Origin: Chitinophagales bacterium
GTDB taxonomy: Bacteria > Bacteroidota > Bacteroidia > Chitinophagales > JADIYW01
Direction: 5' to 3'
Assembly (NCBI GenBank): GCA_023957235.1
Contig: JAMLHI010000003.1
Span: forward strand, 1 to 64,000
DNA: 64,000 nt
The notes under the pieces were generated by a model. It ran no database searches, was not told the origin of the DNA, and saw only the letters and a program-made list of their open reading frames with translations. Below, piece after piece: positions 21,791-39,147 of this stretch; the stretch's first letter is position 1, and the number at the start of each line of letters is the position of its first letter. The translations under genes and the position numbers were made by a program.

Positions 21791-21816
21791 GTTAAAAACT
21801 GACAGCAATACCATAG

Positions 21817-21856
21817 AGTGCTTTGAAGCGTTTGCTTTGTGTGTAAGCAAAGCACT
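21817..21856 (-). terminator. Hairpin after the SEDS-PBP gene
   Basis: Arms AGTGCTTTG (21817-21825) and CAAAGCACT (21848-21856) can pair, and so can the nested TTTGCTT (21831-21837) and AAGCAAA (21845-21851). It lies 20 bases past the stop of the gene read from the right. No U-tract follows, so it is a hairpin of uncertain use. Confidence 0.35.
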
Positions 21857-21875
21857 AAGCCGTCTTTTCTGTGTA

Positions 21876-24800: not shown

Positions 24801-25331
24801 GATTGTGTGAATACCCTCTGATGGTATATTGATATATTTATTCCCTGCATAATTTATTACTCTTATAGAAACACGAGAATCCCTGTTACCAAAGGCAGAA
24901 TTTAATTTTATTCCGTTGACCAAATCCTTTTCACCTACCAAATCTCCCGCACTAAAATATTTATCTTTTGTAAAATACCCGTTGGTTTGATTCTTAGCAA
25001 CTGCCCAAAAGGGGTTATTTATTTCAGCAGAATCGATTTTTATTATTTTATCGCTTAATTTTAGTACAACAGTACCTTTATCAATTGAAACATGGCCTAA
25101 TGTGTCAGGCAATAAACCGATGGCTTGGGGATAATCCAAGAATAGACTTGAATTTGAATTTTTGCTGGTATTAGAAATATAAAAACCACTGTTGGCAGAT
25201 TCCATCTTTATCCCAACACATTCAATAGTATAAGGAGTTCTATTGTTAAGAACCATAGAATAGAAGCTAATAACAGCATAGATGAAGGACGCCATAGTAA
25301 TAATGGCAGGGAGTATAATTTTTTTCATCAT
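21876..25331 (-). CDS. SEDS (RodA/FtsW-like) domain fused to a penicillin-binding transpeptidase domain
   Basis: This 1151-residue protein joins a glycan-polymerase-type SEDS domain to a transpeptidase in one chain. Residues 6-26 are a membrane anchor and 30-260 an extracytoplasmic region I do not recognise. Residues about 263-665 hold roughly ten membrane helices with SEDS landmarks: TSDIGS (434-437 region), SDYALFFSIVFGK with Asp548 at the position of the essential RodA Asp, and LTGQSLPFISTSNFEG (631-645), like the SEDS motif KGLTLPLVSYGGSS. A further helix (686-706) leads to the transpeptidase (about 780-1150): ILIVDNNSGAIISNASYP, GGSVKK (Ser909, Lys912), WSDDVYAS where SxN reads SDD, AIGQEKPYMLSDIVKWYARI and FGKTGTAQ (Lys1089). 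The catalytic Ser-Lys and KTG motifs look intact. Likely role: peptidoglycan synthesis under special conditions (inferred). Confidence 0.82.
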   Translation of the reverse strand: MMKKIILPAIITMASFIYAVISFYSMVLNNRTPYTIECVGIKMESANSGFYISNTSKNSNSSLFLDYPQAIGLLPDTLGHVSIDKGTVVLKLSDKIIKIDSAEINNPFWAVAKNQTNGYFTKDKYFSAGDLVGEKDLVNGIKLNSAFGNRDSRVSIRVINYAGNKYINIPSEGIHTIYAIQSDTNNVFGICLNTEAPYEVGRVFSFKKSTKKNAYYTLDIQTNGFYNATYELKQNNITIQSSSGNSLQFEVGGYLFSLQPKYTLANILFYILVLTIVVSFQVMLLRTLGTISSPLIFSAIALRVHFNNLFLIAAPIFFTALVVTNNRGWYLLSLILINLSYFLPKNLLHGLRYQATKIWTLLLISLLIGLPILMYLKHSHEALFGIPILHFQKLLTLILIYFSQTKIFQSISVNYWFKLVVFTFYSFLLSLITSDIGSFLYTVMALLLIELVKASVSKRKVVIFGAIIAISVVAIYHLIPNAFSDHKLYRIVSPYTNPSSSNVTHAPEADKETYSYLHLIQKALVLDEAPTMNSVVIPGNMRSTSFSDYALFFSIVFGKIVFLILFLSIYFFLMGDLIRLLYAALRPMRINKEYSFVLPHNRESAFIAFLISFAVISFSYPLFSNILAMPLTGQSLPFISTSNFEGFYYLLFLIPVSSFFTNPKYIFSAKTLSYTYSAAEQSRVHNLKLLALFVILVISIKIFFIFSSSSSAYFWNKQSDTDTSNADSTNVLSLNKKQLIAEVQKQIKDESITSVQNKKKVVLRNFATTYHKAKTYAQINQPRFENSLDKVAYRINLDSLLLISKKQISGKSAPFGTVYAINHQINNNTAFKVSNPYYGTISSNSKTLNNDLTAVLCRSIETHLNRIGIPINTGAILIVDNNSGAIISNASYPISSERNEMNVVYLGGSVKKIILAYCALAINPDYSERKFNGKSFAQFIQWSDDVYASSLLKDIMLNHQDAFKNILEKDFDLPFTSGIIDAYFQTLPDKFCYSKSLDSKNYLYRIAIGQEKPYMLSDIVKWYARIASGKKLALHNSTAAIEFGAMSLDDEHLTLLKSYMNLVITSGTASKVGNALKSNGIITTEVFGKTGTAQLENSNKNQSSSLIFCTGKYTIGIRLNGEIPESSVNLTAKDLMISIIPILKQYNILYN

Positions 25332-25334
25332 TTA

Positions 25335-25562
25335 TTAGTTTTGAGTTGGGTTATTATCCGGCAAAGCATCTACAAAGGCATTGCCTCTGGCTATTGCAGC
25401 TTCCAGCAAACTATTAATTTCTTGGCCTCTAGTTTTGGACTTAAAGGCAGTGGCTTTTTCTGTAGCTGAGAAGTCGTCATCAAAGACAATGCTATCATAT
25501 GCCTTATACGAGTCGTACTTCCCGGCTATCTTTTCGCCTAGTTTTTTTAGTATCTGTTTCAT
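25335..25562 (-). CDS. Small acidic protein of unknown function
   Basis: The 75-residue product has a basic start (MKQILKKLGEKIAGKYDSYK), an acidic middle (SIVFDDDFSATEKATAF) and a helical stretch INSLLEAAIARGNAFVDALP. No signal peptide or membrane segment is visible and I do not recognise the family. It ends three bases before the SEDS-PBP start, so translation is probably coupled, and a promoter lies just upstream (25629-25658). It may be a partner or regulator of the fusion protein; that is inference from position alone. Confidence 0.6.
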   Translation of the reverse strand: MKQILKKLGEKIAGKYDSYKAYDSIVFDDDFSATEKATAFKSKTRGQEINSLLEAAIARGNAFVDALPDNNPTQN

Positions 25563-25628
25563 TGCTTATCGTTTATTTACATAAATTTTTAGGGGAAAAC
25601 CCTATTAAACGCTAAGCGAAAACTTTTA

Positions 25629-25658
25629 CAAAACTATTTCGATTTACATTTTCATCAA
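25629..25658 (-). promoter_or_regulatory. Promoter of the 75-residue gene and the SEDS-PBP gene
   Basis: On the minus strand TTG (25658-25656) is followed after 19 bases by TAGTTTTG (25636-25629), a full match to the Bacteroidota consensus with ideal spacing. The leader to the ATG at 25562 would be about 60 bases. Confidence 0.6.
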
Positions 25659-25697
25659 TATTAATTGCGTTATTTGAAATTATCTAGCCTGTAGTTA

Positions 25698-25730
25698 ATA
25701 TTGACTGCCTTCTTTTCAAGCAGCCAATAT
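25698..25730 (-). terminator. Hairpin after the DUF4407-transglutaminase gene
   Basis: Arms ATATTG.CTGC (25698-25708) and GCAG.CAATAT (25720-25730) form an 11-bp stem in the minus-strand RNA, with one G-U pair and an 11-base loop, 18 bases after the stop. No clear U-tract follows. With the promoter 40 bases further on, it separates two transcription units. Confidence 0.45.
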
Positions 25731-25747
25731 CTACTACCTTAGGAATG

Positions 25748-27355
25748 TTAAAATGTTTTTTCATTCCAAAGATTGTATTGCTCCACTAATTTGTCGTCAG
25801 ACCACACATTCCATTCTTTATGTTCTACCTTGTACATTTTGTATGCCGGATCGGAAAGGAAAACTTCGTCATTATGGTCTATCTGAACACAAGCATGTGA
25901 TACTATCTCGCCATTAACATCCTTAGTAACTTCTACAAAGACTGTCTTGATGCCAATTTTTCGCAAGAAGCTCATGTAAAGAACACTCATTTCACCACAG
26001 ATTGCCCTGCCATCATTCCAAACTTCACGGCTAGTACGATAGAAGAATTTTCCATGGTCGTTTTGGTAGCTTATGTTGCTTACTAACCAGTCAAAGATGG
26101 CCATCGGAACATTTTCCGGCACATTGGTAGCCACTACAGTATCTAAAATAGGCTGCATGCTTTCAGTAAATTGTACAATGCTATCTATGGTTTGGCGAGG
26201 CTGTTCATCGCTTTGTTCATCACGACCGTAAGCTCCTTTTTCTTTTGCTTTACTCTCCCTTTGATTTGCCAACACCCTCTCCAGCGTTCTTTGCAAAACT
26301 GCGGCTTCTTCAGGGTAACCTTTAGCGATAAGCCCTTTTATTTTTATTCTCAGTTCAACGGTATATGCTACGGCTCCATCAAAGTTCATCATCTCTACAT
26401 CTCGCTCTTCCTGCACAATACCACTTTCAAGAACTGCTTGCTTAATGCCTATCTTGCGACCCTCAAGCTCGGTTGTCTTTTCTAATTGTGCAGACAAAGA
26501 TTGTTTTCTACGATCCTCCATCTCCTTCTCTTTTTCAGGGTACTCAGTCTCTCTTTTCATGGATAGTTTTAGAGCTACGGTCTGTAGCTCCACATACCCA
26601 ATTACCAGGGCTGCTGCAATAGCAAGAGCCACCATTAGCCAGCCTTTCTTTTTGATCACCATCGGCATATAGGAAGCTTTGATGAAAAAGTCTTTTGCCT
26701 CTACTGATGCCACAGCATTGCGTTGCGTTTGGTAAGCGTTGTAGTATTGTTGCTCCAGTGTATCTAATTTGGACGATTCCACATTTACGGCCTGTATCAT
26801 GGCATCGTATGCCGCTTTTTTCTCCGTGTATTTCGGACCCGGGTAACCATTGGCTGCCTCCGGCTTTACAACATTGGTATTGTAGGTTTCTGCCTCTTCC
26901 TTTTGTTTTGTAACAGCCGCATACCTTCCTTCTTTAGCTTTAAGGTAGGTGTTGTCTATTTCGGTAAGCACATTCCCACTATCTAATGTTATTTGTCCGT
27001 CAATGGTACTTTGATTAAGCATGACCAAGAGACTTGTAAGGCTGATGAAGGTATTGCTTAGGCCCACTAAAATTCTAAGCCATTTTGTAACCCCATCACC
27101 CAGACCACTATTAATCAGTATCAGGTCAAAAACCAGCACCATGGTGGCCCAAAACGTTCCAGTTCCGATTAACACTGCTTTATTGGCAGTAAACTGTGCG
27201 GCAATTTCAAATCCTGCAAAGAAAGAGACGATTACAGCAAAAATTAAGGAAAGCGACAAACAAGCATGTTTGACGATTGTTCTGTAAGAACAGTGTTTTA
27301 AGATGGCGTAATTCGCACCGCTTAAAAAGAAAAAAATTTGAAGTACCTTTTCCAT
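25748..27355 (-). CDS. DUF4407 membrane protein with C-terminal transglutaminase-like domain
   Basis: The N-terminal part matches DUF4407: FLSGANYAILKHCSYRTIVK, then helices at about 28-50 and 58-82, and a third near 88-108. A long Lys/Glu-rich coiled region (about 130-225) is followed by another helix (about 240-262, GWLMVALAIAAALVIGYVEL) and an extended helical part. The last 140 residues form a transglutaminase-like papain fold with a complete triad: Cys453 in GRAICGEMSVLY, His487 in IVSHACVQI and Asp502 in VFLSDPAYKMY. DUF4407 proteins usually lack this enzyme domain as far as I know. The catalytic domain would hydrolyse or cross-link peptides or amides; whether it faces the cytoplasm depends on the helix count. 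It has its own promoter at 27445-27477 and lies between the receiver operon and the cell-wall fusion gene. Confidence 0.8.
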   Translation of the reverse strand: MEKVLQIFFFLSGANYAILKHCSYRTIVKHACLSLSLIFAVIVSFFAGFEIAAQFTANKAVLIGTGTFWATMVLVFDLILINSGLGDGVTKWLRILVGLSNTFISLTSLLVMLNQSTIDGQITLDSGNVLTEIDNTYLKAKEGRYAAVTKQKEEAETYNTNVVKPEAANGYPGPKYTEKKAAYDAMIQAVNVESSKLDTLEQQYYNAYQTQRNAVASVEAKDFFIKASYMPMVIKKKGWLMVALAIAAALVIGYVELQTVALKLSMKRETEYPEKEKEMEDRRKQSLSAQLEKTTELEGRKIGIKQAVLESGIVQEERDVEMMNFDGAVAYTVELRIKIKGLIAKGYPEEAAVLQRTLERVLANQRESKAKEKGAYGRDEQSDEQPRQTIDSIVQFTESMQPILDTVVATNVPENVPMAIFDWLVSNISYQNDHGKFFYRTSREVWNDGRAICGEMSVLYMSFLRKIGIKTVFVEVTKDVNGEIVSHACVQIDHNDEVFLSDPAYKMYKVEHKEWNVWSDDKLVEQYNLWNEKTF

Positions 27356-27444
27356 TTTGAAAAAATTTAGTGATGAACATAATTTCCCGTGAGGCTAAGC
27401 TCGTTGGTATCACTTAATTTATTCTTTCCTGAAAAAGTATAGTA

Positions 27445-27477
27445 CAAAGGTAATACTAATTTTTTTTGATAACCAAA
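27445..27477 (-). promoter_or_regulatory. Promoter of the DUF4407-transglutaminase gene
   Basis: On the minus strand TTTG (27477-27474) is followed after 21 bases by TACCTTTG (27452-27445), a perfect consensus pair. The leader to the ATG at 27355 would be about 85 bases, room for regulation. This shows that the gene need not depend on the upstream eleven-gene operon. Confidence 0.65.
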
Positions 27478-27595
27478 TTTCTTCTAGTTTTGATTTAGTG
27501 TGATAAAGTTTGAATAGAAATGAGAGAGATTTTTACAACTGTTTAATGCAAGCTGGACAGGTGTTTAGCTCAAAAATTATTTAAAATTATTCAGG

Positions 27596-29197
27596 TTATT
27601 TTTCGGGTAGCAAACCTTGTTCTTTTAGCCAGTTTTTTTCTTCCGGTAGGTAATTTTGTTGAGCAAAGTCTTTTTTCTGTAAAAAAAATTTATTCAACTC
27701 AGCCCCAATATCATTATTGGTAGGTGTACCGTAATTGCCCCAACAGATTATTTTAAAAACCTTAGTAATAAGGTCAGACGCAGCTTCATGGCTTTTGATG
27801 GTTTCATTGTTTGAAATGTAATGCCAAAGCCCAATCCAGAGCCTTCTATGGATCATTGCTGTTTGTAAATCGAGCGATTTCTTGGGAATTTCTAAACTAA
27901 AATGCTCCTTGATATTTAATATGTTTTTGAAATCGGTTTTAGCAAAGCTCATGATGTAATTCCAACATTCATCTACTTTCTCATCTACCTTTTTAAAAAA
28001 TACATAGCTATTTAAAGAGCTTTTAACGGTAAAATAGAGTTGCTTATAAGACGTTTCACCCACTACATTTGTCCATGCTTTTGATGTAATGGCACTCACT
28101 TCATTTGAAACAGCATCGATACATTTCTCATACACTATTCCCGAAAATATTTGCCATTGGATCTCATCTTTTAGGAATTGCTTCTTGTATAGGGTAATTT
28201 TTAGGTCTTGGATGTTTCTAATATGGTTAACTATAAAATCTGCCTGAGAAGTCAATGCTACCAACTGCCTATTACTATTTTGCCCAGCATACTGCAAAAT
28301 ATCGTAGCCCTGCATGGACTGCCAATAAGTTTGCGAATCATCTTTGTAAAGCCGCCAGTCAGAAACAACCACTTTTATATCACCACTTCTATCATTATCT
28401 AATAGCTCTATTGCTTTTTGTGCTGTTTGTACTGCCAACACATCAAATGATGGTGACAGTGCTGCTTTCGCCATCTCCAAATCTTCTTTTACATCGTCAA
28501 TAAGTAGCACTTTAAAACCCGTCTTTTCAATGTCATTATGATTTATGCTTTCTAAAAGAAATTGATTGGCTTTTGCTAAAAAAGCATCTTTTTGCTTGTC
28601 AAAATTTTCTTTCGTTAAACCAGGTGTTGTAATTTGTGTTGCAAAATTATGCCAATCTAATGTCAGCATTTGGTTCTGGGTAAGAAAAGGTACTGCTTCT
28701 GAAAGTACAGCTCCTATATCTGCTCCGAACTTTAGGTTATGATTCAGCTTGTCCAAAACCAAGCCCTTGGTATCGCAAAGCATCAGGCTTATATCCTGCA
28801 AGGTGGCAGAGCTAAGGACAGGTAATTTTTCAGCCAAGGTATTCAATACTTTCTCTGAAAAAGGGAGTTCAAGAAATGCGGTGCCAGGAGCAAACAGGAT
28901 TTTATATTTTAAATTGTTTTTGCTTTTTTGTTCAAAATATTCCTTCTGAATAGGACTGTAAAATACAATCGGAAGTTTAGATTTTTTTACCATCCTAATT
29001 TGCTGAGCGATATCGAAACCATAGTTGTTACTGAGTCTATGGTTTTCCCAATTGAGATGGATGTTGATGAGAATATAATCAATTCCTTCAAAGTCCACTT
29101 TCAGAAAATCATGAAAAGAGGTGCATATGTTTTCTTCAGGAATTGGTTCTAGCCCCAGATTGCATAAGTGAATATATGGCAGACTTTGTCTATTCAT
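27596..29197 (-). CDS. Response-regulator protein: pseudo-receiver, intact receiver, unknown C-terminal domain
   Basis: Residues 1-130 resemble a receiver fold without its acidic pocket (YILINIHLNW, then LPIVFYSPIQKE). Residues about 227-345 form a full receiver: Asp234/Asp235 in VLLIDDVKED, phospho-acceptor Asp280 in VVVSDWRLY, Thr316 in LVALTSQAD and Lys338/339 in LYKKQF. The 190 residues after it are helical and match no output domain I know, so DNA binding is not supported. It is the last gene of the eleven-gene operon and overlaps the preceding gene by eight bases. Its N-terminal part is a paralogue of the neighbour's, sharing the VFYSPI.K motif. A partner kinase is not obvious here. Confidence 0.72.
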   Translation of the reverse strand: MNRQSLPYIHLCNLGLEPIPEENICTSFHDFLKVDFEGIDYILINIHLNWENHRLSNNYGFDIAQQIRMVKKSKLPIVFYSPIQKEYFEQKSKNNLKYKILFAPGTAFLELPFSEKVLNTLAEKLPVLSSATLQDISLMLCDTKGLVLDKLNHNLKFGADIGAVLSEAVPFLTQNQMLTLDWHNFATQITTPGLTKENFDKQKDAFLAKANQFLLESINHNDIEKTGFKVLLIDDVKEDLEMAKAALSPSFDVLAVQTAQKAIELLDNDRSGDIKVVVSDWRLYKDDSQTYWQSMQGYDILQYAGQNSNRQLVALTSQADFIVNHIRNIQDLKITLYKKQFLKDEIQWQIFSGIVYEKCIDAVSNEVSAITSKAWTNVVGETSYKQLYFTVKSSLNSYVFFKKVDEKVDECWNYIMSFAKTDFKNILNIKEHFSLEIPKKSLDLQTAMIHRRLWIGLWHYISNNETIKSHEAASDLITKVFKIICWGNYGTPTNNDIGAELNKFFLQKKDFAQQNYLPEEKNWLKEQGLLPEK

Positions 29198-30935
29198 TTA
29201 AAATACTTACTTTCCTATTTTCAAATATCAATTTCAATGGACTTTTCGAGTTTACACCTTCACATACAATAGAATTTGCTTTAAAGACTTTATTGAACAG
29301 TAAAGATTTAAAATCACTATTATCCTTGTATTTATTAAACAACAAAACAACTCTTTTCTCTAAAGTAGTTAACCAATTATCTTTACCAGAATTGTTCTCT
29401 AAACAATTATAAAAATTAATGTACAAAAGCAATAAAGAAAATGGATAAGATGTGTAAGAGGTTTTTCCGTTTTGATTTTTTACTTTCTTATGAAAATTTT
29501 TATCAAAGTCTACAATTTTTATGCTCCCCTCCAAACTTATAAAAAATATTTGCATTGCTAATGTTGCATCACTTATAGAAAAATCATTAAAACAAGCATG
29601 ATGGCTGGCTTGGTTTCGTACTTCAAAAACAAATGAAATAGCTTCATTTCCGCCGTTTTTTAGCTTTAGTAGCTCTAATATTTTACCAATATTATTACAT
29701 ACTGAAGTAGAAGTAAAGGAATCACTATAATATTCGTTTAAATTTAGGTGCTTTTGTTCAAATATAATTTCACGGTTTAAAAGTCGGCGAATAGCAAACC
29801 AGGCAGATTTCAAAATCGAAATAATTTCCTCCTTATTTTTTATATAATTATCTTCCCAGCCTTTCCCTTTTGCCTTGTCAGGTAAAGATTCAACTTCCTT
29901 CCATATTGCATTTAATTGCTTGTAAATGGCAGTATGGCAAAACCCTTCGATACCATTCTTAAAAATCTCAAAATGGCTTAATTTTTGTTCGTTTAATGCA
30001 TCAACACGAATATCTTTTACCATCCAATCGTCAACACCAAGCGAGTCGAAAAATTTATAAATTGATGTTTTGTTACTAGAACTATGAAATACATAGGGTA
30101 CAGAAGGGAACTCTTTTTTTAAAAAATCAAAGACTTTATAGCCTGATATTGATTTGATTTTAGGAATGTCTTTCCATTCATTCGATTCATGGTTCTCTGT
30201 AAGATAGAAGTCGGATAAGATTAAATCCGGTGTAATATTCTTAATTTTTTTCTTGAGTTCTTGCTCAAAATAATTCCAATTATTTTTTAGATGTATTCGA
30301 TAGTCAGCGTTAGTTTTTATTGGCTTCCCACTTGTGTTCTTAACATAAAAAATCATGGAATCGGCATTAATAAAAATAGTTTGGAGAACTAATTTCCACT
30401 CACTTTGCTGGTCATCTATAAAGAAAATCTTATTATTTTTTGTATCTATATTGGAAAGGGATAGTTTATTTCTTAAATTATCACTATTTGCCAATGCCCA
30501 ACCACTCAACAAATTTTCAGAAGCATTGTTAAACTGCGGGAATTTATTATCCAAAATAATTTGGTGTAGTTCTCTTTCGAACTGCCCATCTTCATATTTA
30601 CATTCCACAAACGGCAACAATTTCAACACATAATTTTCGGGTTTTAATCTTACCAAATCATCTTTGGAAATCGGTGAGTAGAAAACTACTTTTAACTTGT
30701 CTTGGCACTTTTCAAATTGCTTAAGCAAGTGGCGGTAAATGATTACACCACCTTGTTGTAGCATTTTTTCTACTCCTTTGAAGGTGCAATGCACATCAAT
30801 GACAAAAACAGTATCGCCAGAAGTGTCAATTACTTTTTCAAAAAGCTGCTCAATGCCATTTTTTTTGGCAAAAACTATTTCAGCAACTTTTTCGTTTTTG
30901 GCAGAAATATTGGATATGTAAACAGGATTCATCAT
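29190..30935 (-). CDS. Response-regulator protein with pseudo-receiver, receiver, and C-terminal region bearing an RX4H motif
   Basis: Residues 1-130 form a pseudo-receiver (VFVIDVHCTF, KVVFYSPISKDD). Residues about 168-310 form a receiver with an internal insertion: Asp174/Asp175 in IFFIDDQQSEW, Asp242 in LILSDFYL, Ser285/286 in VFHSSSNKT and Lys307 in WMVKD. The C-terminal 270 residues are helical and contain FVFEVRNQASHHACFND, where Arg440 and His445 form an RX4H motif like that of HEPN ribonucleases, in a comparable helical setting. If it is a HEPN domain, the protein would be a phosphorylation-controlled RNase; that is inference from one short motif. It overlaps both neighbours by a few bases and is translationally coupled. 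Confidence 0.68.
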   Translation of the reverse strand: MMNPVYISNISAKNEKVAEIVFAKKNGIEQLFEKVIDTSGDTVFVIDVHCTFKGVEKMLQQGGVIIYRHLLKQFEKCQDKLKVVFYSPISKDDLVRLKPENYVLKLLPFVECKYEDGQFERELHQIILDNKFPQFNNASENLLSGWALANSDNLRNKLSLSNIDTKNNKIFFIDDQQSEWKLVLQTIFINADSMIFYVKNTSGKPIKTNADYRIHLKNNWNYFEQELKKKIKNITPDLILSDFYLTENHESNEWKDIPKIKSISGYKVFDFLKKEFPSVPYVFHSSSNKTSIYKFFDSLGVDDWMVKDIRVDALNEQKLSHFEIFKNGIEGFCHTAIYKQLNAIWKEVESLPDKAKGKGWEDNYIKNKEEIISILKSAWFAIRRLLNREIIFEQKHLNLNEYYSDSFTSTSVCNNIGKILELLKLKNGGNEAISFVFEVRNQASHHACFNDFSISDATLAMQIFFISLEGSIKIVDFDKNFHKKVKNQNGKTSYTSYPFSLLLLYINFYNCLENNSGKDNWLTTLEKRVVLLFNKYKDNSDFKSLLFNKVFKANSIVCEGVNSKSPLKLIFENRKVSILNE

Positions 30936-31489
30936 TTGCCAAGTTTTGTGTTTACATAGGCTTGCAATTCGGCTTTCTTTGTTTTTAGCTCTGCTGTGGG
31001 AGTAGTAAGTGGGTGGGAGGTAGCGAAAGGTTCTAAAAGTGCTTCGAGTTTGGGGTCAAAACTCTGTAATGCTTCAAAAACATTGCCTCCATTTTTTAAT
31101 GCCAATGCAAATGCTTCTAAATCCCATTCAGTTGTAGCATCATCACTTACTTTTCCTTGAAAGGCAAATACGTTCTCATTCTTATTACCCAAGATAATGT
31201 CAGCTCCACCAGAATAAACAATAACGATTTTATCTTGTGGAATTCCATTTACTGCATTATTAAACTGGTCATTACTGTAATGTATAAAGATGTATTTAAT
31301 AAGATTAATGAATTGATCAAAAAATTCTTTGTGGTTACTCCAAACTCCTGTTAAGCTATCAACATTCTGCCCATTAAATTGTCTATGATGAGTGGCTGAT
31401 AAGTCATATCTTTTTAATAAGCTTACAATGTTTTCACCTCTTGTTGTGTTGCTATCAAAAATCAGTATATTAATATTATGCTCCATCAT
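30932..31489 (-). CDS. Small receiver-like protein
   Basis: The 185-residue protein opens like a receiver (NINILIFDSNTTRGENIVSL) and has a second hydrophobic strand with a small-residue turn (KIVIVYSGGADIIL), which parallels the VFYSP motif of the two larger neighbours. The acidic pair and the Lys switch are not convincing, so it may not accept phosphate. The C-terminal 60 residues are a helical, charged tail (TAELKTKKAELQAYVNTKL). It overlaps the upstream gene by 14 bases and the downstream gene by four. A role as adaptor or phosphate-independent receiver is a guess. Confidence 0.6.
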   Translation of the reverse strand: MMEHNINILIFDSNTTRGENIVSLLKRYDLSATHHRQFNGQNVDSLTGVWSNHKEFFDQFINLIKYIFIHYSNDQFNNAVNGIPQDKIVIVYSGGADIILGNKNENVFAFQGKVSDDATTEWDLEAFALALKNGGNVFEALQSFDPKLEALLEPFATSHPLTTPTAELKTKKAELQAYVNTKLGK

Positions 31490-33257
31490 GTTTATAGGTT
31501 TTATAATTAAAAATTAAGTATCGGTGATGGTCTTCAAAATTGCAGTTAGTTTTACCAACTAAACAGTTGTCATTTAGTTTTTCGTATTTAGCATTAGTGA
31601 TAAACATATCGTTATTTTTATTTTTAACAACAAAATAAAAGTCTCCTATATATACAATATTAGGTAGTATTTTTTTTAACACCTCTGGGACATTAGCTGA
31701 ATCGTATGTAAATACTGTATTGTCGTCCATATAACTTAAAATTAAGAATGTGTCTTGCTCCTTTATAGTGCCTTTAACATTGGCATCACTTAAATTTAAG
31801 ATATTCTCAGTAATAATATTATCCAAATAAATATTTAAATTCGTGATTGAATATTTCTTAAAAACTGAGGTAAGTAAATGGCTAATAGCATCTTCAAAAT
31901 ACTCCAAAATATTAACATGTATTCGCTCAGAAGTGGGGTTAATGTTAAAAGTGATTTGTGAATTAAAACCTATCAGATAAGTATTAATTTTTTTTAACAT
32001 AACATTAGAATTTCGATAAGTCACTAAACAAGTAGTATTAATTTTTAACTTTTGAATTTCATCAAGTAAAGCAATAGCTTTATTTTTAACCGTTAAGTCT
32101 GATATGTTTGAAATTTGAGCTTTGGCATCGCTTATGTTTTTAGCTACGTTATTTATCGCATCTTCTTTTTTCCACCTACTGCCATCATTGCTATGACATA
32201 AATCTGCAAAGCCACAAGTGTCAATCAAAAAAGAAAAGACCGTTGGAATTTTTACATTTACCTTCTTCTGATACAAGTGGTAAGCAACATTACCAGCTAA
32301 TACAGAGGATACTCGCTCACTAAGTATTCTAAAAAACACCCTATCTTCTTTTTCTAAAGTATTTTTATAGCCAATAATCAATGAGCCGAGAGACCGCTTT
32401 GTATTTGCTTTCTTGTCAACAAAAATTACGCTTGGTATATTCTCTATTACTACATTAAAAATGAATGATAAAAAACCATGAGCGATTATCGTATTTGCAA
32501 ATGACTCTATTAGTATCTCCTTTTCTGTTTTGTACTCAAAGAAATTGTTGTTGTTTATCCTATTTAATTGTTTGATTTTTTCAACTAACTTTTTTTTGTA
32601 ATTATCTATACTGTTTTTACAAATAAGATTTGAAATCAGAAAGTGGGAGTTGTCAGCATTTCCATTATTGTTGTATATGTTTTCATTTTTATTTGTACTG
32701 GGAATCCACTTGTTGTTAGTATCTAATAATTGTTCTTTGTATTTATCGAAAATTACTTTTTTGGTATCATCATAGCTCTTTTTGTTCCCAAAAATTTCAT
32801 AATAGGGAAACTCAAAAGAAAGTAAGTCAAGTTGATGGATATATCTTACAGCATCATATTTCTTGTCATTACAGCTGATTTTAAAAGCTACTGGTGTTTT
32901 GTCAAATAGCTTTGCAAATGTTATAGACGTTTGTATAGTAGATAAATTGCTATTAAGTCCTTTAAGATAGCTCCGAAAATACCCATAATCGGATACAATG
33001 TATTCTTCAAAACTTCTTTCGTTAAATGAGTTGAAAAAGAAGCGATTATTTGTAATTGATTTTATCTCAAATGGAAAGTCTGTTAAAGTAGAGTATGAGA
33101 ATGAAATGAATTCTAGATTATCGTATTGGTGCATCCATTGAGTGCTACAAATTTCATTAAAAAACTTGTTAATAACATCTTCAATATCATCATATCCAAT
33201 AATTGAAAAATCAATTTTGGATAAAATGTCATAATAAAATGAGGTTATTTTATTCAT
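31476..33257 (-). CDS. Large orphan protein with GAF-like segment, possible sensor of the receiver proteins
   Basis: I do not recognise the full 593-residue chain. Residues about 245-325 resemble the end of a GAF domain, in particular KRSLGSLIIGYKNTLEKEDR followed by the helix VFFRILSERVSSVLAGNVAY. A charged helical part follows (about 360-400). The C-terminal part has an FEDAISHLLTSVFKKY stretch and a later LILSYMDDNTVFTYD that weakly recall the N and G boxes of histidine-kinase ATPase domains, but no phospho-acceptor His box or GxGL motif is clear. There is no signal peptide or membrane helix. Base composition is very AT-rich, with many Asn and Lys codons. Its place before three receiver-type genes suggests a sensory or kinase-like role. 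Confidence 0.55.
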   Translation of the reverse strand: MNKITSFYYDILSKIDFSIIGYDDIEDVINKFFNEICSTQWMHQYDNLEFISFSYSTLTDFPFEIKSITNNRFFFNSFNERSFEEYIVSDYGYFRSYLKGLNSNLSTIQTSITFAKLFDKTPVAFKISCNDKKYDAVRYIHQLDLLSFEFPYYEIFGNKKSYDDTKKVIFDKYKEQLLDTNNKWIPSTNKNENIYNNNGNADNSHFLISNLICKNSIDNYKKKLVEKIKQLNRINNNNFFEYKTEKEILIESFANTIIAHGFLSFIFNVVIENIPSVIFVDKKANTKRSLGSLIIGYKNTLEKEDRVFFRILSERVSSVLAGNVAYHLYQKKVNVKIPTVFSFLIDTCGFADLCHSNDGSRWKKEDAINNVAKNISDAKAQISNISDLTVKNKAIALLDEIQKLKINTTCLVTYRNSNVMLKKINTYLIGFNSQITFNINPTSERIHVNILEYFEDAISHLLTSVFKKYSITNLNIYLDNIITENILNLSDANVKGTIKEQDTFLILSYMDDNTVFTYDSANVPEVLKKILPNIVYIGDFYFVVKNKNNDMFITNAKYEKLNDNCLVGKTNCNFEDHHRYLIFNYKTYKHDGA

Positions 33258-34263
33258 TGGTATATCTATTTATATTATCATATCCAATAGAAAAATAGGT
33301 TTGCCCTTTATGTTTTTCAGCAAGTATTTGTGCCAGTTTTACAGCATATAAAGAGCTTATTCCTAAGTTTCCAATTATTTCATTATTACGATACTGCTCT
33401 TTTAATTCCTCTATTTCCAAATCGGAAGTATAAAACATTTCATCTACCAATGCTTTTGCGGGGTCTATATGTTTAAGAGAAACATTGGGACCGTATAAAC
33501 CAAAAATAACTTGTTTGGATTCAAATGCAGGATAATAAGAGTATATCTTAATATTGGATTTGGCTCCTTTAAATACTTTTGCTACCGCTTCTGTAGAAGT
33601 GCCGTTGCCTAAACCTAAAATGGCAACATCGGGCAAACCATTTGTGCGGATATACTCTTTTGCCATTCTTGAAAAGACATAGGTTATTAAGTTTGATTTT
33701 TCTTCGCTATGGTTAGCGACATAATAGTTATAGGTACTCAACAGTTCTCTCAATTTTTCTATACAAGCATCTATGTAGCCAGGCACTTTTACTATTTCTG
33801 TTCCGGCATCTTCCATTGGTTTTATTCTTCCAGAAGGCAACATATCAGGCACAATCATAGTAAGCTGATAGCCTAAATTTTGGCAAGCCAAAGACAAAGA
33901 AATACCAGAACTACCTGATGTTACTTCTATTATTTTTGTTTGCTCTGGCTCAATAATGCCAAAAGATTCAGCTAAAGCCAAATGTATCAACCAATATCGT
34001 GAATAATGGTTATTACCCATTTCGTTTTCACATTCTAATTTTATATTTAATTGATTGTTATTATCAAGCAACAAATTGTAAACTGGCGTATTGCCAATAC
34101 CTTTATATAACTGCTGATATAGCTTTCTTCTTTGAGGTTTTAATTCAGTAAGCAGGTAAAATATTTCAGACAAATCCTCATTGCCTTCTAAAAAGGTCAA
34201 CAATTTAGGACGTTCTTGTATTTCCCTATATAAATTTGTCTTTACTCGCAATTCTTTTACCAT
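33250..34263 (-). CDS. Cysteine-synthase-fold (PLP type II) protein lacking the Schiff-base lysine
   Basis: The fold is clear from YKGIGNTPVYNL (like IGNTPL of CysK), NIKLECENEMG, IIEVTSGSSGISLSLACQNL, LTMIVPDMLPSGR and the glycine loop AILGLGNGTSTEA. In cysteine synthases the KLE..NP segment continues GSVKDR with the PLP lysine. Here it continues NNHYSR, so Tyr87 replaces Lys. The SGNTG substrate loop also reads SGSSG. A Lys used from elsewhere cannot be excluded, but standard PLP chemistry is doubtful. It may act as a ligand-sensing or structural protein, or bind an amino acid delivered by the importer encoded next to it. It lies six bases after the binding-protein gene and overlaps the next gene by eight. 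Confidence 0.78.
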   Translation of the reverse strand: MVKELRVKTNLYREIQERPKLLTFLEGNEDLSEIFYLLTELKPQRRKLYQQLYKGIGNTPVYNLLLDNNNQLNIKLECENEMGNNHYSRYWLIHLALAESFGIIEPEQTKIIEVTSGSSGISLSLACQNLGYQLTMIVPDMLPSGRIKPMEDAGTEIVKVPGYIDACIEKLRELLSTYNYYVANHSEEKSNLITYVFSRMAKEYIRTNGLPDVAILGLGNGTSTEAVAKVFKGAKSNIKIYSYYPAFESKQVIFGLYGPNVSLKHIDPAKALVDEMFYTSDLEIEELKEQYRNNEIIGNLGISSLYAVKLAQILAEKHKGQTYFSIGYDNINRYTNE

Positions 34264-34269
34264 CTTCTA

Positions 34270-35385
34270 TTATTTAATTATTTCAGGTTTGCCGTTCACT
34301 ATTTTTTTGAATATATTTTCCCTTGATACATCACCATCGCTAAAGTTGAGTGTGCCACCTGCACCATCATAATTTTTTAAATTTCGTATATACTGTGCTA
34401 CTTTAACCGGATCGTTGCCTACTTTATTTATTGCTTCTACTATCAACATAACAGCGTCATAACCATTGGCATCAGCCAACCAAGGCTCTATATTATATTT
34501 AGTTTTAACAGCATTGTAAAAACTTTTAATTTTTGCATCGGTACTTTTGGGGTCGTAAGCTGGAGTCGGAACAATTACTCCATTTGCAGCCGCTCCTGCA
34601 ATATCCAAACAACTTTTCTCTAAGAAACTTGTATTAGAAATGACAGGCAGTTGGTTCTTGTTTTCTCTAAGCTGTTTCATGAAATTACCCATTTCTACTT
34701 GGTTGCCTGCGAGGTAAATACAATCAGCATTGATGTTCTTAATTTTTGTAATGAGTGTTTTAAAGTCAACATTTTCATAATTATAAATCTCTTTAGCAGC
34801 TATAATACCACCTAAATATTTAAACTTTTTTTCAAAACTCTCCATTAATCCTATTCCCCAATCATTGTTTACATATACTACGATTGCTTTCTTAAAGTGC
34901 AGTTGATTAAATGTGTATTCAGCGGCACTATTGGCTTCCTCATTATTAGAAGGCCAATTTCGGGCAAATAAATTACCTGCACCTGTAAGCTTAGGTGTGG
35001 CTGCACCTGGAGAAAATAAGAACACATTGTTTTTTTCGGTAACAGGTAGCATGGCTAACGTAACCGTACTTGATATGTCGCCAATGATATATTTAACTCC
35101 ATCTACATTTATCAGTTTTTGTAGCGAGTTTATCGCCTCTTTATTTTCACCTTTAGAATCTTGCAAAAGAATTTCTAATTTCTTTCCACCAAGTAGAGAA
35201 TCATTGTTTACTTCTTCGAGTGCCGCATCTACACCTCTCTTTACGGCTTCCCCATAGGTGGCTAATTCTCCGGTCATTGGATTAATAAATCCTATTTTAA
35301 TAGTATCTGTTTTATTATTACAAGCACTAAAAAGAAGCACACCTAACACAACCGACAATACCGATTTAAAAATTCCCTTTATCAT
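34270..35385 (-). CDS. LivK-like type I periplasmic binding lipoprotein
   Basis: A lipoprotein signal (SVLSVVLGVLLFSACNN) tethers a periplasmic-binding fold type I domain. Diagnostic segments are IKIGFINPMTGELATYGEAV, KRGVDAALEEVN, GVKYIIGDISSTVTLAMLPV, KAIVVYVNNDWGIGL and DANGYDAVMLIVEAINKVG. The family binds branched-chain amino acids, urea, amides or aromatic acids; the ligand cannot be read from sequence. It sits 14 bases after livF and, with the permeases and ATPases, makes a complete high-affinity importer. Being cotranscribed with receiver proteins suggests a sensing role as well. Confidence 0.9.
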   Translation of the reverse strand: MIKGIFKSVLSVVLGVLLFSACNNKTDTIKIGFINPMTGELATYGEAVKRGVDAALEEVNNDSLLGGKKLEILLQDSKGENKEAINSLQKLINVDGVKYIIGDISSTVTLAMLPVTEKNNVFLFSPGAATPKLTGAGNLFARNWPSNNEEANSAAEYTFNQLHFKKAIVVYVNNDWGIGLMESFEKKFKYLGGIIAAKEIYNYENVDFKTLITKIKNINADCIYLAGNQVEMGNFMKQLRENKNQLPVISNTSFLEKSCLDIAGAAANGVIVPTPAYDPKSTDAKIKSFYNAVKTKYNIEPWLADANGYDAVMLIVEAINKVGNDPVKVAQYIRNLKNYDGAGGTLNFSDGDVSRENIFKKIVNGKPEIIK

Positions 35386-35399
35386 TTTATTTCTATTTA

Positions 35400-36110
35400 T
35401 TAATTATACAAATGGTTGTCTAAAAAATCCTGTTTTAAAAATTCTGCTTTTGCAAAGCTGTCATACAGTTTTCCTTCTTTAATTATCGCTACATGGTCAG
35501 CCAGTTCAAAAGCAACACTGTAATTATGCTCCACTAATATCATGGTTTTTTGCTTTTCTTGTTTCATCTTCTTTAAAAATACCACCGCTTCTTTTACTGC
35601 TTCGGGTGCAAGCCCTGCTGTAGGCTCATCCAACAACCAACAATCTGTCTCCTGGGCCAACAACATGGCAAACGAAAGCATCTGCCTTTGTCCGCCTGAA
35701 AGATTACCACCTCTTTTATCCATACAATTTGCCAAAGCAGGAAAATGAAAGAGACACTCTTCTTTTATGTTTGCTGCTTCTGTTTTGCTTTTATCTTTCA
35801 ATGCCAGTTCAAAATGTTCGCTCACTTTCAGCGTAGGAAATACCATGCCACCCTGCACAAACCATGATATGCCTTGCTGTTTTAAGTCCCATGTGTTTTT
35901 GTTGTTCAACTTCACACCTGCAAAGGAAATGTTTCCTGCATTATCCTTAATTATCCTTGCAATGGTTTTGAGTAAAGTGCTTTTGCCACAGCCGTTTTGC
36001 CCAATCACTGCCAATACTTCGCCTTTGCCTACGGCAAAAGAAATATCGTGCAAAACGGTTTTACCATTATAGCCCGAAGTGAGGTTTTGTATGTTTAATA
36101 TGTGACTCAT
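35400..36110 (-). CDS. livF: LivF-type ABC transporter ATP-binding protein
   Basis: This 236-residue ATPase has Walker A GQNGCGKSTL, signature LSGGQRQMLSFAM, Walker B CWLLDEPTAGL with the catalytic Glu, and the H-loop LVEHNY. The pattern VQGGMVFPTLKVSEHFELAL is LivF-like. All catalytic residues are present. It overlaps livG by four bases (ATGA) and pairs with it as the second ATPase of the importer. Confidence 0.92.
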   Translation of the reverse strand: MSHILNIQNLTSGYNGKTVLHDISFAVGKGEVLAVIGQNGCGKSTLLKTIARIIKDNAGNISFAGVKLNNKNTWDLKQQGISWFVQGGMVFPTLKVSEHFELALKDKSKTEAANIKEECLFHFPALANCMDKRGGNLSGGQRQMLSFAMLLAQETDCWLLDEPTAGLAPEAVKEAVVFLKKMKQEKQKTMILVEHNYSVAFELADHVAIIKEGKLYDSFAKAEFLKQDFLDNHLYN

Positions 36111-36826
36111 ACTGTTGCTATATCGTTAATGGTTTTAATTTTCCCGTCTTTCATTTCAATATGACCATCTGCTACTTTCAATACTTCATTAATATTATGC
36201 TCAATAATTAAGAAGGTAATTCCTTCGCTTCGCATTTGCAGTATCATATTGCTGAACCGTTCTATGGTTTGTGGATTTAGGCCTGCAAAAGGTTCGTCCA
36301 ACAAAGCCAACTGAGTGCCGTTCATGGCAATCATACAAAAAGAAATCAGTTTTTGCTGTCCGTAAGAAAGTTCTCCTGCTGTTTGGTTGCTCAACTCATG
36401 CAAACCAAATTTTGTAAGTAAGTCAAGTGCTTTTTGTTCCAGCGTTTCATCTTCCTGCTTTGCAGTTTTGGGTTTAAAAATGAGGTTCAGAAAACTGTTT
36501 CCTGTGTTGTTGTGTGCTGCCGAAACCAAATTCTCCCACACCAACAAGTTCTTAAACAGTCGTGGCTGCTGATACAAACGAATAATGCCTTGCCTGGCAA
36601 TTTCCAAAGAGGATTTGCCTGTGATGTTGTTCCCGTTGAAAGTGATATTTCCTTTTGTTGGTTTTACCAAGCCTGTAATAAGATTGAACAAAGTGGTTTT
36701 ACCCGCTCCGTTTTCGCCTGTAATAAGCGTTATGCTTTGCTTACTCACGGCAAACGAAACATCTTTGACAGGTGCAACTCCGTCAAAAGATTTGTTCAGG
36801 TTCTGTATGTTCAATAGCTCACTCAT
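36107..36826 (-). CDS. livG: LivG-type ABC transporter ATP-binding protein
   Basis: The ATPase shows Walker A GENGAGKTTLFNLITG, signature LSYGQQKLISF, Walker B LALLDEPFAGLNP and H-loop LIIEHNI. LFKNLLVWENLVSAAHN is the LivG-type Q-loop region. At 239 residues it is slightly shorter than typical LivG. Its start lies inside the end of the DUF1016-N fragment: ATGAGTGA serves as the livG start and the fragment's stop. Confidence 0.92.
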   Translation of the reverse strand: MSELLNIQNLNKSFDGVAPVKDVSFAVSKQSITLITGENGAGKTTLFNLITGLVKPTKGNITFNGNNITGKSSLEIARQGIIRLYQQPRLFKNLLVWENLVSAAHNNTGNSFLNLIFKPKTAKQEDETLEQKALDLLTKFGLHELSNQTAGELSYGQQKLISFCMIAMNGTQLALLDEPFAGLNPQTIERFSNMILQMRSEGITFLIIEHNINEVLKVADGHIEMKDGKIKTINDIATV

Positions 36827-37169
36827 TATCTAATTCAAATTTTATTCTGAAACTCAATTCGGTACGCACTGCGTTCCAAATTGGGAAAGCAAGGAAAAAC
36901 GCTCTCATATTATTGAGGTTGCGTTCATTAAATCCTTTTCCAAACTCTAAGGTCAGTTGGTCAGCAAGGTTTTTTAAAACAGCTTTGCCGTATTCTGCTC
37001 TACATACTCCTTTTTGTTCATCCTCAATAATTAACTGCCCGATTTCCCAATACATTTTAAGGAGAATAGTGTTGGTGTTTCGGTATACGGCAGCTTTAGC
37101 CTCTGATATAATTCGGGCAACAGCTGGGTATAAAGATTGATTTATATGTTGTATATTATCATTCATCAT
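36819..37169 (-). CDS. DUF1016 N-terminal-domain fragment embedded in the importer operon
   Basis: The 116-residue product matches the N-terminal domain of YhcG/DUF1016 proteins: YPAVARIISEAKAAVYRNTN, LLKMYWEIGQLIIEDEQKG, YGKAVLKNLADQLTLEFGKG and FNERNLNNMRAFFLAFP. Full-length members continue after NAVRTELS into a PDDEXK nuclease domain; here the chain stops after 11 more residues. The frame is open, the start touches the livM stop and the stop overlaps the livG start by eight bases, so it is neatly built into the operon. It may be a captured helical binding module or a recent remnant. The nuclease domain is absent from the surrounding sequence. Confidence 0.75.
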   Translation of the reverse strand: MMNDNIQHINQSLYPAVARIISEAKAAVYRNTNTILLKMYWEIGQLIIEDEQKGVCRAEYGKAVLKNLADQLTLEFGKGFNERNLNNMRAFFLAFPIWNAVRTELSFRIKFELDNE

Positions 37170-38038
37170 TATTGAATTAAATATTTTCCGAATAGCCCTT
37201 TTGGTTTAAACCTTACAATCAGCACTAATAATAAACCGAAAAGTATCATCCGCATATTGGCGGCAATACTGTCAGGCATTTGCAAAAACTTCAATAATTC
37301 GGGAAGCAGAATGTAAATGACTGCTCCTGTAATAGGTCCTATTATTCTTCCTGCTCCACCAATTAAAACAATGCTTAGGATTAAAATAGATTCATCTAAT
37401 GTGAATGAACTTGGGTCAATATAAGTAGTATAAGTTGCGTAAAGTGTACCTGCAATGCCTGCAATAACGGCAGAAAGCATAATGCTGATGCGTTTGTAGT
37501 AATTAGGGTTTTTGCCCAAACTCAAAACAGCAATCTGGTCATCTCTTGTTGCCTGTATCAATCGGCTGATAGGTGTTTTCAAAAACCAAACGTAAAAGAG
37601 AATGACCAACAAAACCCAAACGGCACCAAATACAGCAAAACTTGCAGGGGTGTTTATTTTCAACCCAAAAATTTCAGGATTGGATATTCCTGAAATGCCG
37701 TAAGTGCCGTTAGTAACAGGAATCCAGTTGTAAGCAAGGGAAAAGAAAATGATTTGCAAAGCCAATGTTGCCAAACTGAAATAAAGTTCTCTAACTTTTC
37801 CTGCAACAAAACTGAACAATAAAGCAGCAATGATACTAATTAATATAGCAACAGGCAATGCCAACCAATAAGAGAAACCGAATTTTGTAATGGTAATAGC
37901 TGCTGCGTATGCTCCCGATCCATAAAAAACCGCCTGTGCCAAACTCAACAAGCCTGACAAGCCTACCTTCTGATTGGCACTTAATGCCAACAGAATGTAA
38001 ATTTCAAGCATTACCAATATGTGAAAAATATAATTCAT
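37169..38038 (-). CDS. livM: LivM-type ABC transporter permease
   Basis: The protein has about eight hydrophobic helices and the LivM signatures ALSANQKVGLSGLLSLAQAV with FYGSGAYAAAI after it, then LYFSLATLALQIIF, and the EAA-like loop ATRDDQIAVLSLGKNPNYYK. The closing segment IVLIGGAGRIIGPITGAVIY is also typical. It overlaps livH by four bases. Confidence 0.92.
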   Translation of the reverse strand: MNYIFHILVMLEIYILLALSANQKVGLSGLLSLAQAVFYGSGAYAAAITITKFGFSYWLALPVAILISIIAALLFSFVAGKVRELYFSLATLALQIIFFSLAYNWIPVTNGTYGISGISNPEIFGLKINTPASFAVFGAVWVLLVILFYVWFLKTPISRLIQATRDDQIAVLSLGKNPNYYKRISIMLSAVIAGIAGTLYATYTTYIDPSSFTLDESILILSIVLIGGAGRIIGPITGAVIYILLPELLKFLQMPDSIAANMRMILFGLLLVLIVRFKPKGLFGKYLIQ

Positions 38039-38913
38039 GCTCTGTCTTTTCTTAAATTGTAACTAATGATGCCTTCTGTTTTGAATAAAATCACCAACAG
38101 TAAAATCAGGAATGTGATTCCTTCTTTCCATTGTGCATTGAGAAACCATTCAACAGCATTTTGAATAAAGGTCAATCCAACTGAAAAAACAATAATCAAA
38201 AGCACATTCAATCTTGCAACAAGAATGGCAACAACAGCTGCTGTAAGCGTAATGCTCATTCCTGCCTGTGGATCAATGCCTGTTTCCATAGTTTTAAGAA
38301 TGGCAGCAATGCAAGCTAAAATGCTCCCGATGATAAATACTTTGGTTCGTTCCTTTTCTGTGTTGATACCAAAAACTTTGCTGATTGTTTCATTGTCAGA
38401 AACAGCTTGTAAAGCCATGTTGGATTTCGTGACTTTCAAATAGAGTAGGAAAGTGGTAGTAGCTACTATTCCAACTATTGTTTGAATCATCTGGACTTTT
38501 GAGAAAATGATATTACTCAACCCAAAAGAACCTGAAACCGTATTGTCAATTATTTTATTTTCGTTGCCGAAAAACATTGCTAACCCATTTACAATGACCA
38601 CATACAGACCCATTGAGGCAATCAGGGAAATGCTTTGATTGGATTGTTTCTTTGTAAGTGGTAAGTAAATACTTTTTTCAATCAGGTAAATGAGAACTGC
38701 CACAGCCAAAATGGAAAAGGCAACGGCAAAAAACCAATTGTTAGTCTTTGTCAGCATCCACCAACACGCAAATGCTCCCGAAACATAAATGCCGCCATGT
38801 GCTAAATGAAATACTTTTGTTACCTGAAAAATATAAGTAAAGCCGATGGCTACAAGGCTAAGTAGTAACCCTGAAACAATGCTGTTCAATAATATCTGTA
38901 TGCTTTCTGTCAT
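38035..38913 (-). CDS. livH: LivH-type ABC transporter permease
   Basis: This is the first gene of the eleven-gene operon. It has about eight membrane helices and LivH signatures: LLSLVAIGFTYIFQVTKVFH, LAHGGIYVSGAFACWWML, the loop LQAVSDNETISKVFGINTEK and AAVVAILVARLNVLLI. Upstream, 38914-39147 is gene-free. There I see no complete promoter; ACCTTTG lies seven bases before the ATG but has no TTG at the right distance. Read-through from mnmE is possible. Confidence 0.92.
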   Translation of the reverse strand: MTESIQILLNSIVSGLLLSLVAIGFTYIFQVTKVFHLAHGGIYVSGAFACWWMLTKTNNWFFAVAFSILAVAVLIYLIEKSIYLPLTKKQSNQSISLIASMGLYVVIVNGLAMFFGNENKIIDNTVSGSFGLSNIIFSKVQMIQTIVGIVATTTFLLYLKVTKSNMALQAVSDNETISKVFGINTEKERTKVFIIGSILACIAAILKTMETGIDPQAGMSITLTAAVVAILVARLNVLLIIVFSVGLTFIQNAVEWFLNAQWKEGITFLILLLVILFKTEGIISYNLRKDRA

Positions 38914-39147
38914 CTTTTACAAAGGTCTATAATTATCTATTATCCTAAATTATCCTCTTACAAAAACCACAAATTGCTTTTGCCGAAGTCGGGTAAATTA
39001 TCTTCTTGAAAATATTGCTGTGTGGTACTACTTGGCGCATTATTTCTCCACTACATACTAATTTGTGCCATTGGGCAACAAAAAAGTGAAAGAAAAGTGT
39101 AATGAAATTCAACAAAAACAACTACTTGGCAAATAAAAGAAAGATAA

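Follow-up and report, generated by a model that had tools for sequence, protein, structure and literature searches.

The 64,000-nucleotide stretch of DNA analysed here (contig JAMLHI010000003.1 of a Chitinophagales bacterium, labelled G000; the whole stretch is hereafter the window) contains a locus at 27596–38913 in which a complete Liv-type importer and its substrate-binding lipoprotein (SBP) are joined to an enzyme-fold protein, an orphan protein and receiver proteins. This locus is not a chance neighbourhood, and we hold with considerable confidence that it forms one functional unit. We read that unit, at even chances, as a horizontally moving, modular, importer-gated receiver–HEPN conflict system; a conflict or defence role, taken by itself, comes just short of an even chance. 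The reading builds on gene order, conservation in relatives, motif conservation, cassette exchange and location in a genomic island, and the part-swapping between distant bacteria suggests an undescribed stress or defence system. The unit comprises eleven consecutive open reading frames (ORFs) running from 38913 to 27596, given here in order of transcription and compared where useful with L010, the closest related locus by importer sequence.

38035..38913, minus strand: livH-type permease (NCBIfam UrtB 7e-21 and LivH 2e-15, both sub-cut-off)
37169..38038, minus strand: livM-type permease, used as clade marker (Pfam BPD_transp_2 9e-44, plus LivM tree)
36819..37169, minus strand: DUF1016_N fragment of 116 residues between livM and livG (Pfam DUF1016_N 1.5e-26)
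36107..36826, minus strand: livG-type ATPase (blastp to relatives only; 94% identical to L010)
35400..36110, minus strand: livF-type ATPase (ABC_tran 1e-29; UrtE-like 1e-55; 90% identical to L010)
34270..35385, minus strand: Liv-type SBP (Peripla_BP_6 9e-58; lipobox FSAC, C22)
33250..34263, minus strand: cysteine-synthase-fold protein in a variable enzyme slot (PALP 5.6e-25, 88.7 bits against a cut-off of 35)
31476..33257, minus strand: orphan of 593 residues, placed by position in the histidine-kinase slot of most relatives
30932..31489, minus strand: protein of 185 residues (slot position; weak similarity only)
29190..30935, minus strand: RR581, a receiver with a helical HEPN-like C-terminus (D174, D175, D242, S287, K307; R440-x4-H445)
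27596..29197, minus strand: RR533, a receiver with an output of no assigned type (D234, D235, D280, S317, K338)

The ten junctions measure -4, -1, -8, -4, +14, +6, -8, -14, -4 and -8 bases, a range of -14 to +14 that agrees with the original prediction of eleven same-strand genes separated or overlapping by at most 14 bases. The importer that it had called complete is so: Pfam recognizes LivM, LivF and the binding protein, NCBIfam points below cut-off to LivH and blastp identifies LivG, giving the two permeases, two ATPases and Peripla_BP_6 binding protein of a hydrophobic amino acid transporter (HAAT, Liv/Urt type). None of the proteins scanned (LivH, LivM, LivF and SBP) reached a Liv/Urt NCBIfam cut-off, so that the substrate is not nameable. 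The unit probably extends past position 27596, towards 20000.

Searching genome contigs with LivH recovered five loci, L010 (Bacteroidota KLAP123), L011 (Chitinivibrionales), L012 (Saprospiraceae), L013 (Desulfobulbaceae) and L014 (Kiritimatiellaeota); the gene order in L010, L011 and L013 is of the same kind as in the window. Contig ends truncate L012 and L014, and in L012 (in G676) LivHMGF–SBP stands at that end. A genome of the same order and another family (G048, locus L008) encodes on one strand LivH, LivM, LivG, LivF, an SBP and a 958-residue kinase, followed by proteins of 234, 725 and 660 residues, the last two of which are receiver proteins; its receivers are 24–29% and its SBP 30% identical to those of the window. 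Counting same-locus pairs once (L010/L074 and L007/L008, with L011 a cut copy of L073) and leaving out L012, L014 and L062, which contig ends cut, we arrive at eight uncut loci: the window, L010 (G674), L008, L073, L056 (G567), L058, L057 (G513) and L013. These are distributed over Bacteroidota, Chitinivibrionales and Desulfobulbaceae, and all eight combine an importer, an SBP, a kinase or orphan and receiver-type genes, mostly with an enzyme too.

A LivM profile run against 395 genomes of the phylum returned 18 matches with an E of at most 1e-46 (the window and 17 others, in 14 genomes, that of G666 being partial), followed after a gap by generic importers at 3e-38. In a LivM tree of 28 rows the eight loci lie with the window in an 11-row group, the limit of which is not firm because its support is only 89/89, and an inner six-row group with the window is supported at 99/98. 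The module label changes 4 times on this tree, against 7.1 times for shuffled labels (7 of 500 shuffles as low, with three cut loci scored as negatives). Full-length RR533 is present in six of the eight uncut loci. When the RR533 profile was run against the 395 genomes, scoring at most three candidates per genome (our genome searches in general scored just the best few), full-length matches were confined to G000, G332 and G567, all three at Liv loci; these three are themselves rows of the query profile, and the informative part is that no unlinked full-length match appeared, a point on which the original prediction, which tied the receivers to the importer, held. Short matches covering the receiver alone (G469, G473 and G543, about 1e-9) were set aside, as were second short matches in G048, G675, G277/G676 and G677; the G677 stretch (L075) has no related gene.

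The importer and the genes behind it have different histories. Window and L010 DNA are 86.7% identical over 38955–37171 and 88.6% over 36827–35302, the second block reaching into the SBP gene for just 84 bases, as far as the signal peptide and lipobox; past this point ~274 bases of RR533 align (66%) and nothing else, the genes having been replaced or having far diverged. At the protein level the window LivH is 85% identical to that of L010 and 45% to that of L008, and LivM 95% and 55%. The importer is 85–95% identical between window and G674 as a whole, and we conclude that it moved between distant hosts because LivM is 95% identical though mnmE is 47% identical. Between L008 (a Bacteroidota order) and L073 (Chitinivibrionales), LivM identity is 82%, a likeness that suggests cross-phylum transfer. 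The gap between the two window/L010 blocks is filled by the DUF1016_N fragment, 73% identical to the start of a 333-residue DUF1016/YhcG_C gene situated just upstream of livH in L010 (the L010 protein matches the PADLOC candidate family PDC-S02 at 1.6e-129). As the fragment interrupts DNA otherwise collinear with L010, and livM and livG adjoin directly in the other seven uncut loci, it is an insertion; the original prediction had counted it as an operon member, and we reject it as a component of the system.

The enzyme slot appears to vary with the binding protein. It holds a pyridoxal phosphate (PLP)-fold protein without the PLP lysine in the window, a short-chain dehydrogenase/reductase (SDR) with a lysine-less PLP-fold protein in L056, a methyltransferase in L010, a PALP protein with a methyltransferase in L058 (lysine motif FKIR present, by eye), a radical SAM protein in L073, a B12-radical SAM protein in L057 and no enzyme gene in L008; in L013, the start of the kinase gives a weak methyltransferase-like match (E 0.006). 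Window and L010 share LivM at 95% and SBP at 29%, whereas window and L056 share LivM at 51%, SBP at 50% and the lysine-less PLP gene, common to both, at 43–44%; the sole other lysine-less PLP gene found thus accompanies the SBP closest to the window's. The absence of the lysine, claimed in the original prediction, was borne out: in two cysteine synthases of solved structure the catalytic Lys aligns with Tyr87 of the window protein, within the motif NNHYSR, which the 43%-identical L056 homologue shares letter for letter. The window protein accordingly belongs to the PALP sequence family and lacks its catalytic lysine. The solved structures closest to the SBP are 3td9 (6e-42), 4n0q and 4gnr, of the branched-chain amino acid binding type. 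In three printed alignments the solved homologues are acidic (GDG, GEG and GDG) where the window SBP has NTS; we take the acidic residue at this position to contact the amino group of the ligand, and because NTS replaces it, the ligand of the window SBP may be something other than a standard amino acid.

RR581 and RR533 score below the Pfam Response_reg cut-off (E 0.052 and 0.0043) and yet present the acidic, Asp, Ser and Lys positions of a receiver, phosphorylatable residue included, which are largely conserved in the two nearest relatives aligned; a Foldseek search with the weak RR581 model also returned receivers. Neither protein has a DNA-binding or ANTAR match in Pfam or NCBIfam, and the receiver genes diverge fast between relatives. 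Seven proteins occupy the RR581 slot, and five of them (window, L010, L008, L056 and L058) contain an R-x4-H motif (RNQASH, RNSASH, RGDASH, RNEASH and RNTVAH), R and H being two of just four invariant columns among the 399 of the five-protein alignment. The C-terminal part of RR581 is mostly helix in a low-confidence model (mean pLDDT, the predicted local distance difference score, 43), and thus combines, so far as that model gives its helicity, the R-x4–6-H motif and all-helical domain of HEPN proteins. Pfam gives HEPN_Swt1 for RR581 (0.017, 15.8 bits against a cut-off of 27.5) and, for the L058 protein, DUF4145 (8e-4, 19.9 bits against 23.1) and HEPN_RiboL-PSP (0.007, sub-cut-off); the L010, L008 and L056 proteins have no Pfam HEPN match, and none of the five reaches a curated HEPN-family score. 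On this motif evidence we lean towards a receiver-controlled HEPN output. For the L073 and L057 slot proteins the HEPN assignment was rejected, each having two transmembrane (TM)-like stretches instead, and because these two loci hold a different protein in the slot, the effector appears exchangeable.

The slot preceding the 185-residue protein is where the window departs from most of its relatives. Both an H-box (MSHN-x2-SHV) and an N-box (EN[ILV]IRN) are present in the kinases of L008, L073, L058 and L013; the L057 kinase combines the N-box with a variant H-box (AHNMGAH), and that of L056 is split over two overlapping ORFs (L056:9292-12871), the first with the H-box, through a frameshift, an assembly error or the presence of two genes. 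Membrane segments, sought in three kinases, were absent from those of L008 and L073, and that of L058 has one borderline stretch beside the N-box; because no clear segment was seen, these kinases probably read the cytosol. The orphan family holds the slot in the window, L010 and G277, and genome searches found its homologues only in the latter two (2 of 298 genomes of the order and 1 of 395 of the phylum, own genome included each time). The orphan has no H-box or N-box kinase motif. We rejected the idea of a degenerate kinase (hhalign with the kinases of four relatives gave a probability of 0.2%), and the GAF-like character given to it in the original prediction was likewise not borne out, there being no significant Pfam or NCBIfam match and a best E of 0.14 in a PDB profile search; its AlphaFold model (mean pLDDT 30.6) was unusable. 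A small gene stands in the 185-residue slot in six of the eight uncut loci (L057 has a 337-residue ORF, and the slot lies beyond the stretch covered in L013). We suspect the 185-residue protein of being a stand-alone receiver; its similarities are all weak, Cas10 and Csm6 hints among them, and of the three receiver-type proteins originally predicted it is RR581 and RR533 that stand, by their receiver residues.

Comparison with a congener (G032, L088) places the locus in an island, together with two further genes on the same strand.

19998..39145, strand not assigned: genomic island (blastn against G032, L088, plus gene comparison)
25748..27355, minus strand: DUF4407-like region with four TM-like stretches and a transglutaminase-like domain (Transglut_core 5e-7; DUF4407 0.012, sub-cut-off)
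21876..25331, minus strand: polytopic protein of 1151 residues with a C-terminus like a penicillin-binding-protein transpeptidase (KTGT; Transpeptidase 1.7e-4, 21.4 bits against 22.1; TM-like stretches)

Homology to G032 stops at 39146, the mnmE stop (mnmE, by eye, lies 234 bases upstream of the locus), and resumes at 19997, such that 19.1 kb in the window faces 1.96 kb in the congener (L088 10669-12631), where AbiEii (Pfam 5e-30) is paired with an ORF that by eye is AbiEi-like and that Pfam does not match. In a second congener, G100, the genes next to mnmE are different ones, and the same empty site was not seen there. Four genes at 40651–52504 (513, 823, 360 and 2189 residues) are conserved beside mnmE in both G032 and G100, and form a stable island flank. 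The transglutaminase/DUF4407 gene begins 240 bases after RR533; it has no match in G032, G100, G018 or G674, and a 30% homologue downstream of the G567 system. There it is adjoined by a 37% homologue of the 1151-residue protein, which by eye resembles a permease–transpeptidase fusion. L008 and L074 both encode a lipobox protein and one with four TM-like stretches, in L008 after the receivers and together with a Transgly–Transpeptidase protein. We regard both window genes as accessory and infer an envelope module, the likeness to L008 and L074 being mainly architectural (one blastp match, E 0.002). A viral or plasmid origin was set aside: single-protein scans of IMG/VR, which reach close relatives, gave none for RR581 or the orphan, and in PLSDB neither the orphan nor RR581 nor the L008 kinase had a relative; the LivH query met 876 plasmid records in PLSDB, all under 60% identity (25–31% among the 20 matches listed).

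Taken together, importer, SBP, enzyme-fold protein and receivers held as one signalling unit in the tests run, as originally predicted, less the GAF label and DUF1016_N. We envisage that the Liv importer and lipoprotein would capture and import a small molecule, which the matched enzyme-fold protein (here of the lysine-less PLP fold) would handle; a cytosolic sensor, a kinase in most relatives and the orphan here, would activate the receivers according to ligand or importer state. RR581 would then act as a receiver-controlled HEPN-type ribonuclease causing growth stop or cell death, the 185-residue protein would buffer or relay, and RR533 with the downstream envelope genes would constitute a second output. 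Each causal step in this scheme, namely ligand import as trigger, phosphotransfer, ribonuclease activity and a conflict or defence role, is one that we infer.

Several observations weigh against this scheme. A cognate histidine kinase is absent from the window locus, and a profile of the relatives' kinases, which covers that kinase type only, has no match in G000, G674 or G277; the receivers of the kinase-less form may obtain their phosphate from another donor or may act as nucleotide-type switches, as put forward for other conflict systems (PMC8195603). L057 keeps importer and kinase (it has no called livH) and yielded no full-length RR533 in the 395-genome search, and L013 shows none within the stretch covered, which runs as far as a kinase-like gene and an ORF after it whose receiver match is sub-cut-off (E 0.0085). 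The original prediction expected the orphan to accompany receivers and importer, as it does in L010; G277 is an unlinked case, with the orphan and a 217-residue gene ~1 kb after a uvrA-like gene (by eye), at a contig end and with Liv not adjacent. G676, the host of L012, is probably the same assembly as G277, since one weak match lies at the same coordinates in the two genomes. Most relatives were located via the importer, which biases the linkage count. The candidate HEPN assignment draws on a motif, sub-cut-off matches and a low-confidence model, and the RR581 slot contains another protein in L073 and L057. Neither the window signalling genes nor the L008 and L073 kinases had a confident match in PADLOC.

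An ordinary nutrient-responsive regulator, in which amino acid-like uptake would lead kinase and receivers to adjust uptake or metabolism, is an unlikely explanation of the same genes. It has a precedent in AmiC/AmiR (PMC3369931), where a receiver-fold regulator is under the control of a Liv-fold binding protein. The solved relatives of the SBP, itself of amino acid type, number AmiC among them, and the L058 operon includes an intact-looking PALP enzyme that could belong to ordinary amino acid metabolism. RR581 and RR533, however, are without DNA-binding or ANTAR match, RR581 has the HEPN-like motif, the receiver genes diverge fast, and AbiE-type genes occupy the same site in the congener. The eight uncut operons, moreover, have one or two enzyme genes and no catabolic gene set, so that association of the importer with ordinary metabolism, the outcome that would have counted against the original prediction, was not found apart from the ambiguous PALP of L058.

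Two further explanations account for parts of the pattern. In a kin- or quorum-like signal exchange, which we consider somewhat more unlikely again, the enzyme would make or modify a signal, the importer would retrieve it and the receivers would respond to present or damaged neighbours; this would suit the PLP-fold, SDR, methyltransferase, radical SAM and B12-radical SAM types across loci, and the tracking of enzyme type by SBP type in the one comparable pair (window and L056). Against it, Pfam recognized no exporter in the window operon, L008 has no enzyme gene, and the window protein, without its PLP lysine, may be no enzyme. It is improbable that the locus is made up of a mobile importer operon and, unrelated to it, a conflict module that hitch-hikes behind for no gain but transcription. 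DNA identity does drop sharply between importer and downstream genes, and related importers of a sister group travel with other modules, but the same kind of module follows the SBP in 8/8 uncut loci, in more than one phylum, and the SBP changes with the downstream genes, not with the importer.

Defensive two-component systems (Detocs) encode a kinase, receiver proteins and a receiver-linked effector together, and their effectors are exchangeable. They are presented (PMC11249213, PMC10952713) as a three-gene family whose best-described member has a PNP effector. Compared by description only, our conflict-system reading shares with Detocs the logic of kinase, receivers and exchangeable receiver-linked effector, and differs by the five-gene importer, the enzyme slot, the HEPN-like effector, possibly the envelope genes, and the lack of a kinase in the window. 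No Pfam match to the PNP effector was found among the window signalling genes, and PADLOC scans of these genes, the L008 and L073 kinases and sister-group genes gave no match named Detocs. AmiC/AmiR offers the likeness of a Liv-fold ligand-binding protein controlling a receiver-fold regulator that acts on RNA, with the difference that AmiR is an antiterminator, no ANTAR match being present here, and that AmiC is not described as an importer part in the portion of PMC3369931 available. HEPN toxins and effectors (Anantharaman et al, 2013) likewise place an R-x4-H helical domain behind a sensory domain, the nearest models here being Swt1-like, RiboL-PSP and DUF4145; the accessible text of PMC3710099 describes no importer-coupled receiver–HEPN protein. 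In the MoxR–vWA/ternary conflict systems (eLife 2020, 2021), receivers are switches proposed, in the excerpts of PMC8195603, to work without histidine kinases, which would suit the kinase-less window; the window genes scanned have no MoxR or vWA–ternary Pfam match, and no ABC importer is described in the available sections of PMC7159879 and PMC8195603. A figure legend in PMC13092281 shows predicted defence systems with HATPase and REC domains, with which the window-type system may overlap. Open-access PMC titles and abstracts yielded no system combining a Liv importer with receiver–HEPN or TIR genes. The assembly is made of parts of known kinds, and if these are given the greater weight it may be seen as another form of two-component conflict system.

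The sister LivM group (eight rows, support 100/100) shows that related importers keep other company. At L066:14036-19798 (G494:C44) a single run encodes LivF, a radical SAM protein, a TIR protein (PF13676 6e-7, spbK model 7e-11), an SBP, LivH and LivM; other importer operons of the group include a GGDEF gene (L068, 1e-8), a DUF4062/NTPase gene (L064, 7e-6), a B12-radical SAM gene (L071), a weak P-loop NTPase-like gene (L067) and a 566-residue gene with no Pfam match (L065). It is conceivable, though doubtful, that the Liv-importer superclade as a whole serves as the receptor arm of conflict systems, with SBP and tailoring enzyme exchanged together for ligand and with import as the trigger; outputs would be exchanged among receiver–HEPN, membrane, TIR, GGDEF and DUF4062/NTPase modules, and the trigger would be small-molecule import, not mere outside binding. 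A further four-row LivM group (L060, L061 and L063) has, by eye, toxin–antitoxin- or AbiE-like genes, lying between livH and livM or just before livH. The window operon likewise has the DUF1016_N fragment inside it, and such operons may be hot spots for insertion.

If our reading of the window locus is true, ABC importers would be sensors that arm toxin-like effectors, a route undescribed in the literature found in the accessible part of open-access PMC, and small-molecule uptake would be linked to ribonuclease or TIR-type outputs. The natural swaps, in which a near-same importer is met with a different SBP and enzyme, would then make up a ligand-switchable receptor series, and with it a concrete test of which small molecules signal danger or kin to bacteria. 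On a modest reading, the locus would still define a cross-phylum operon family with unannotated genes.

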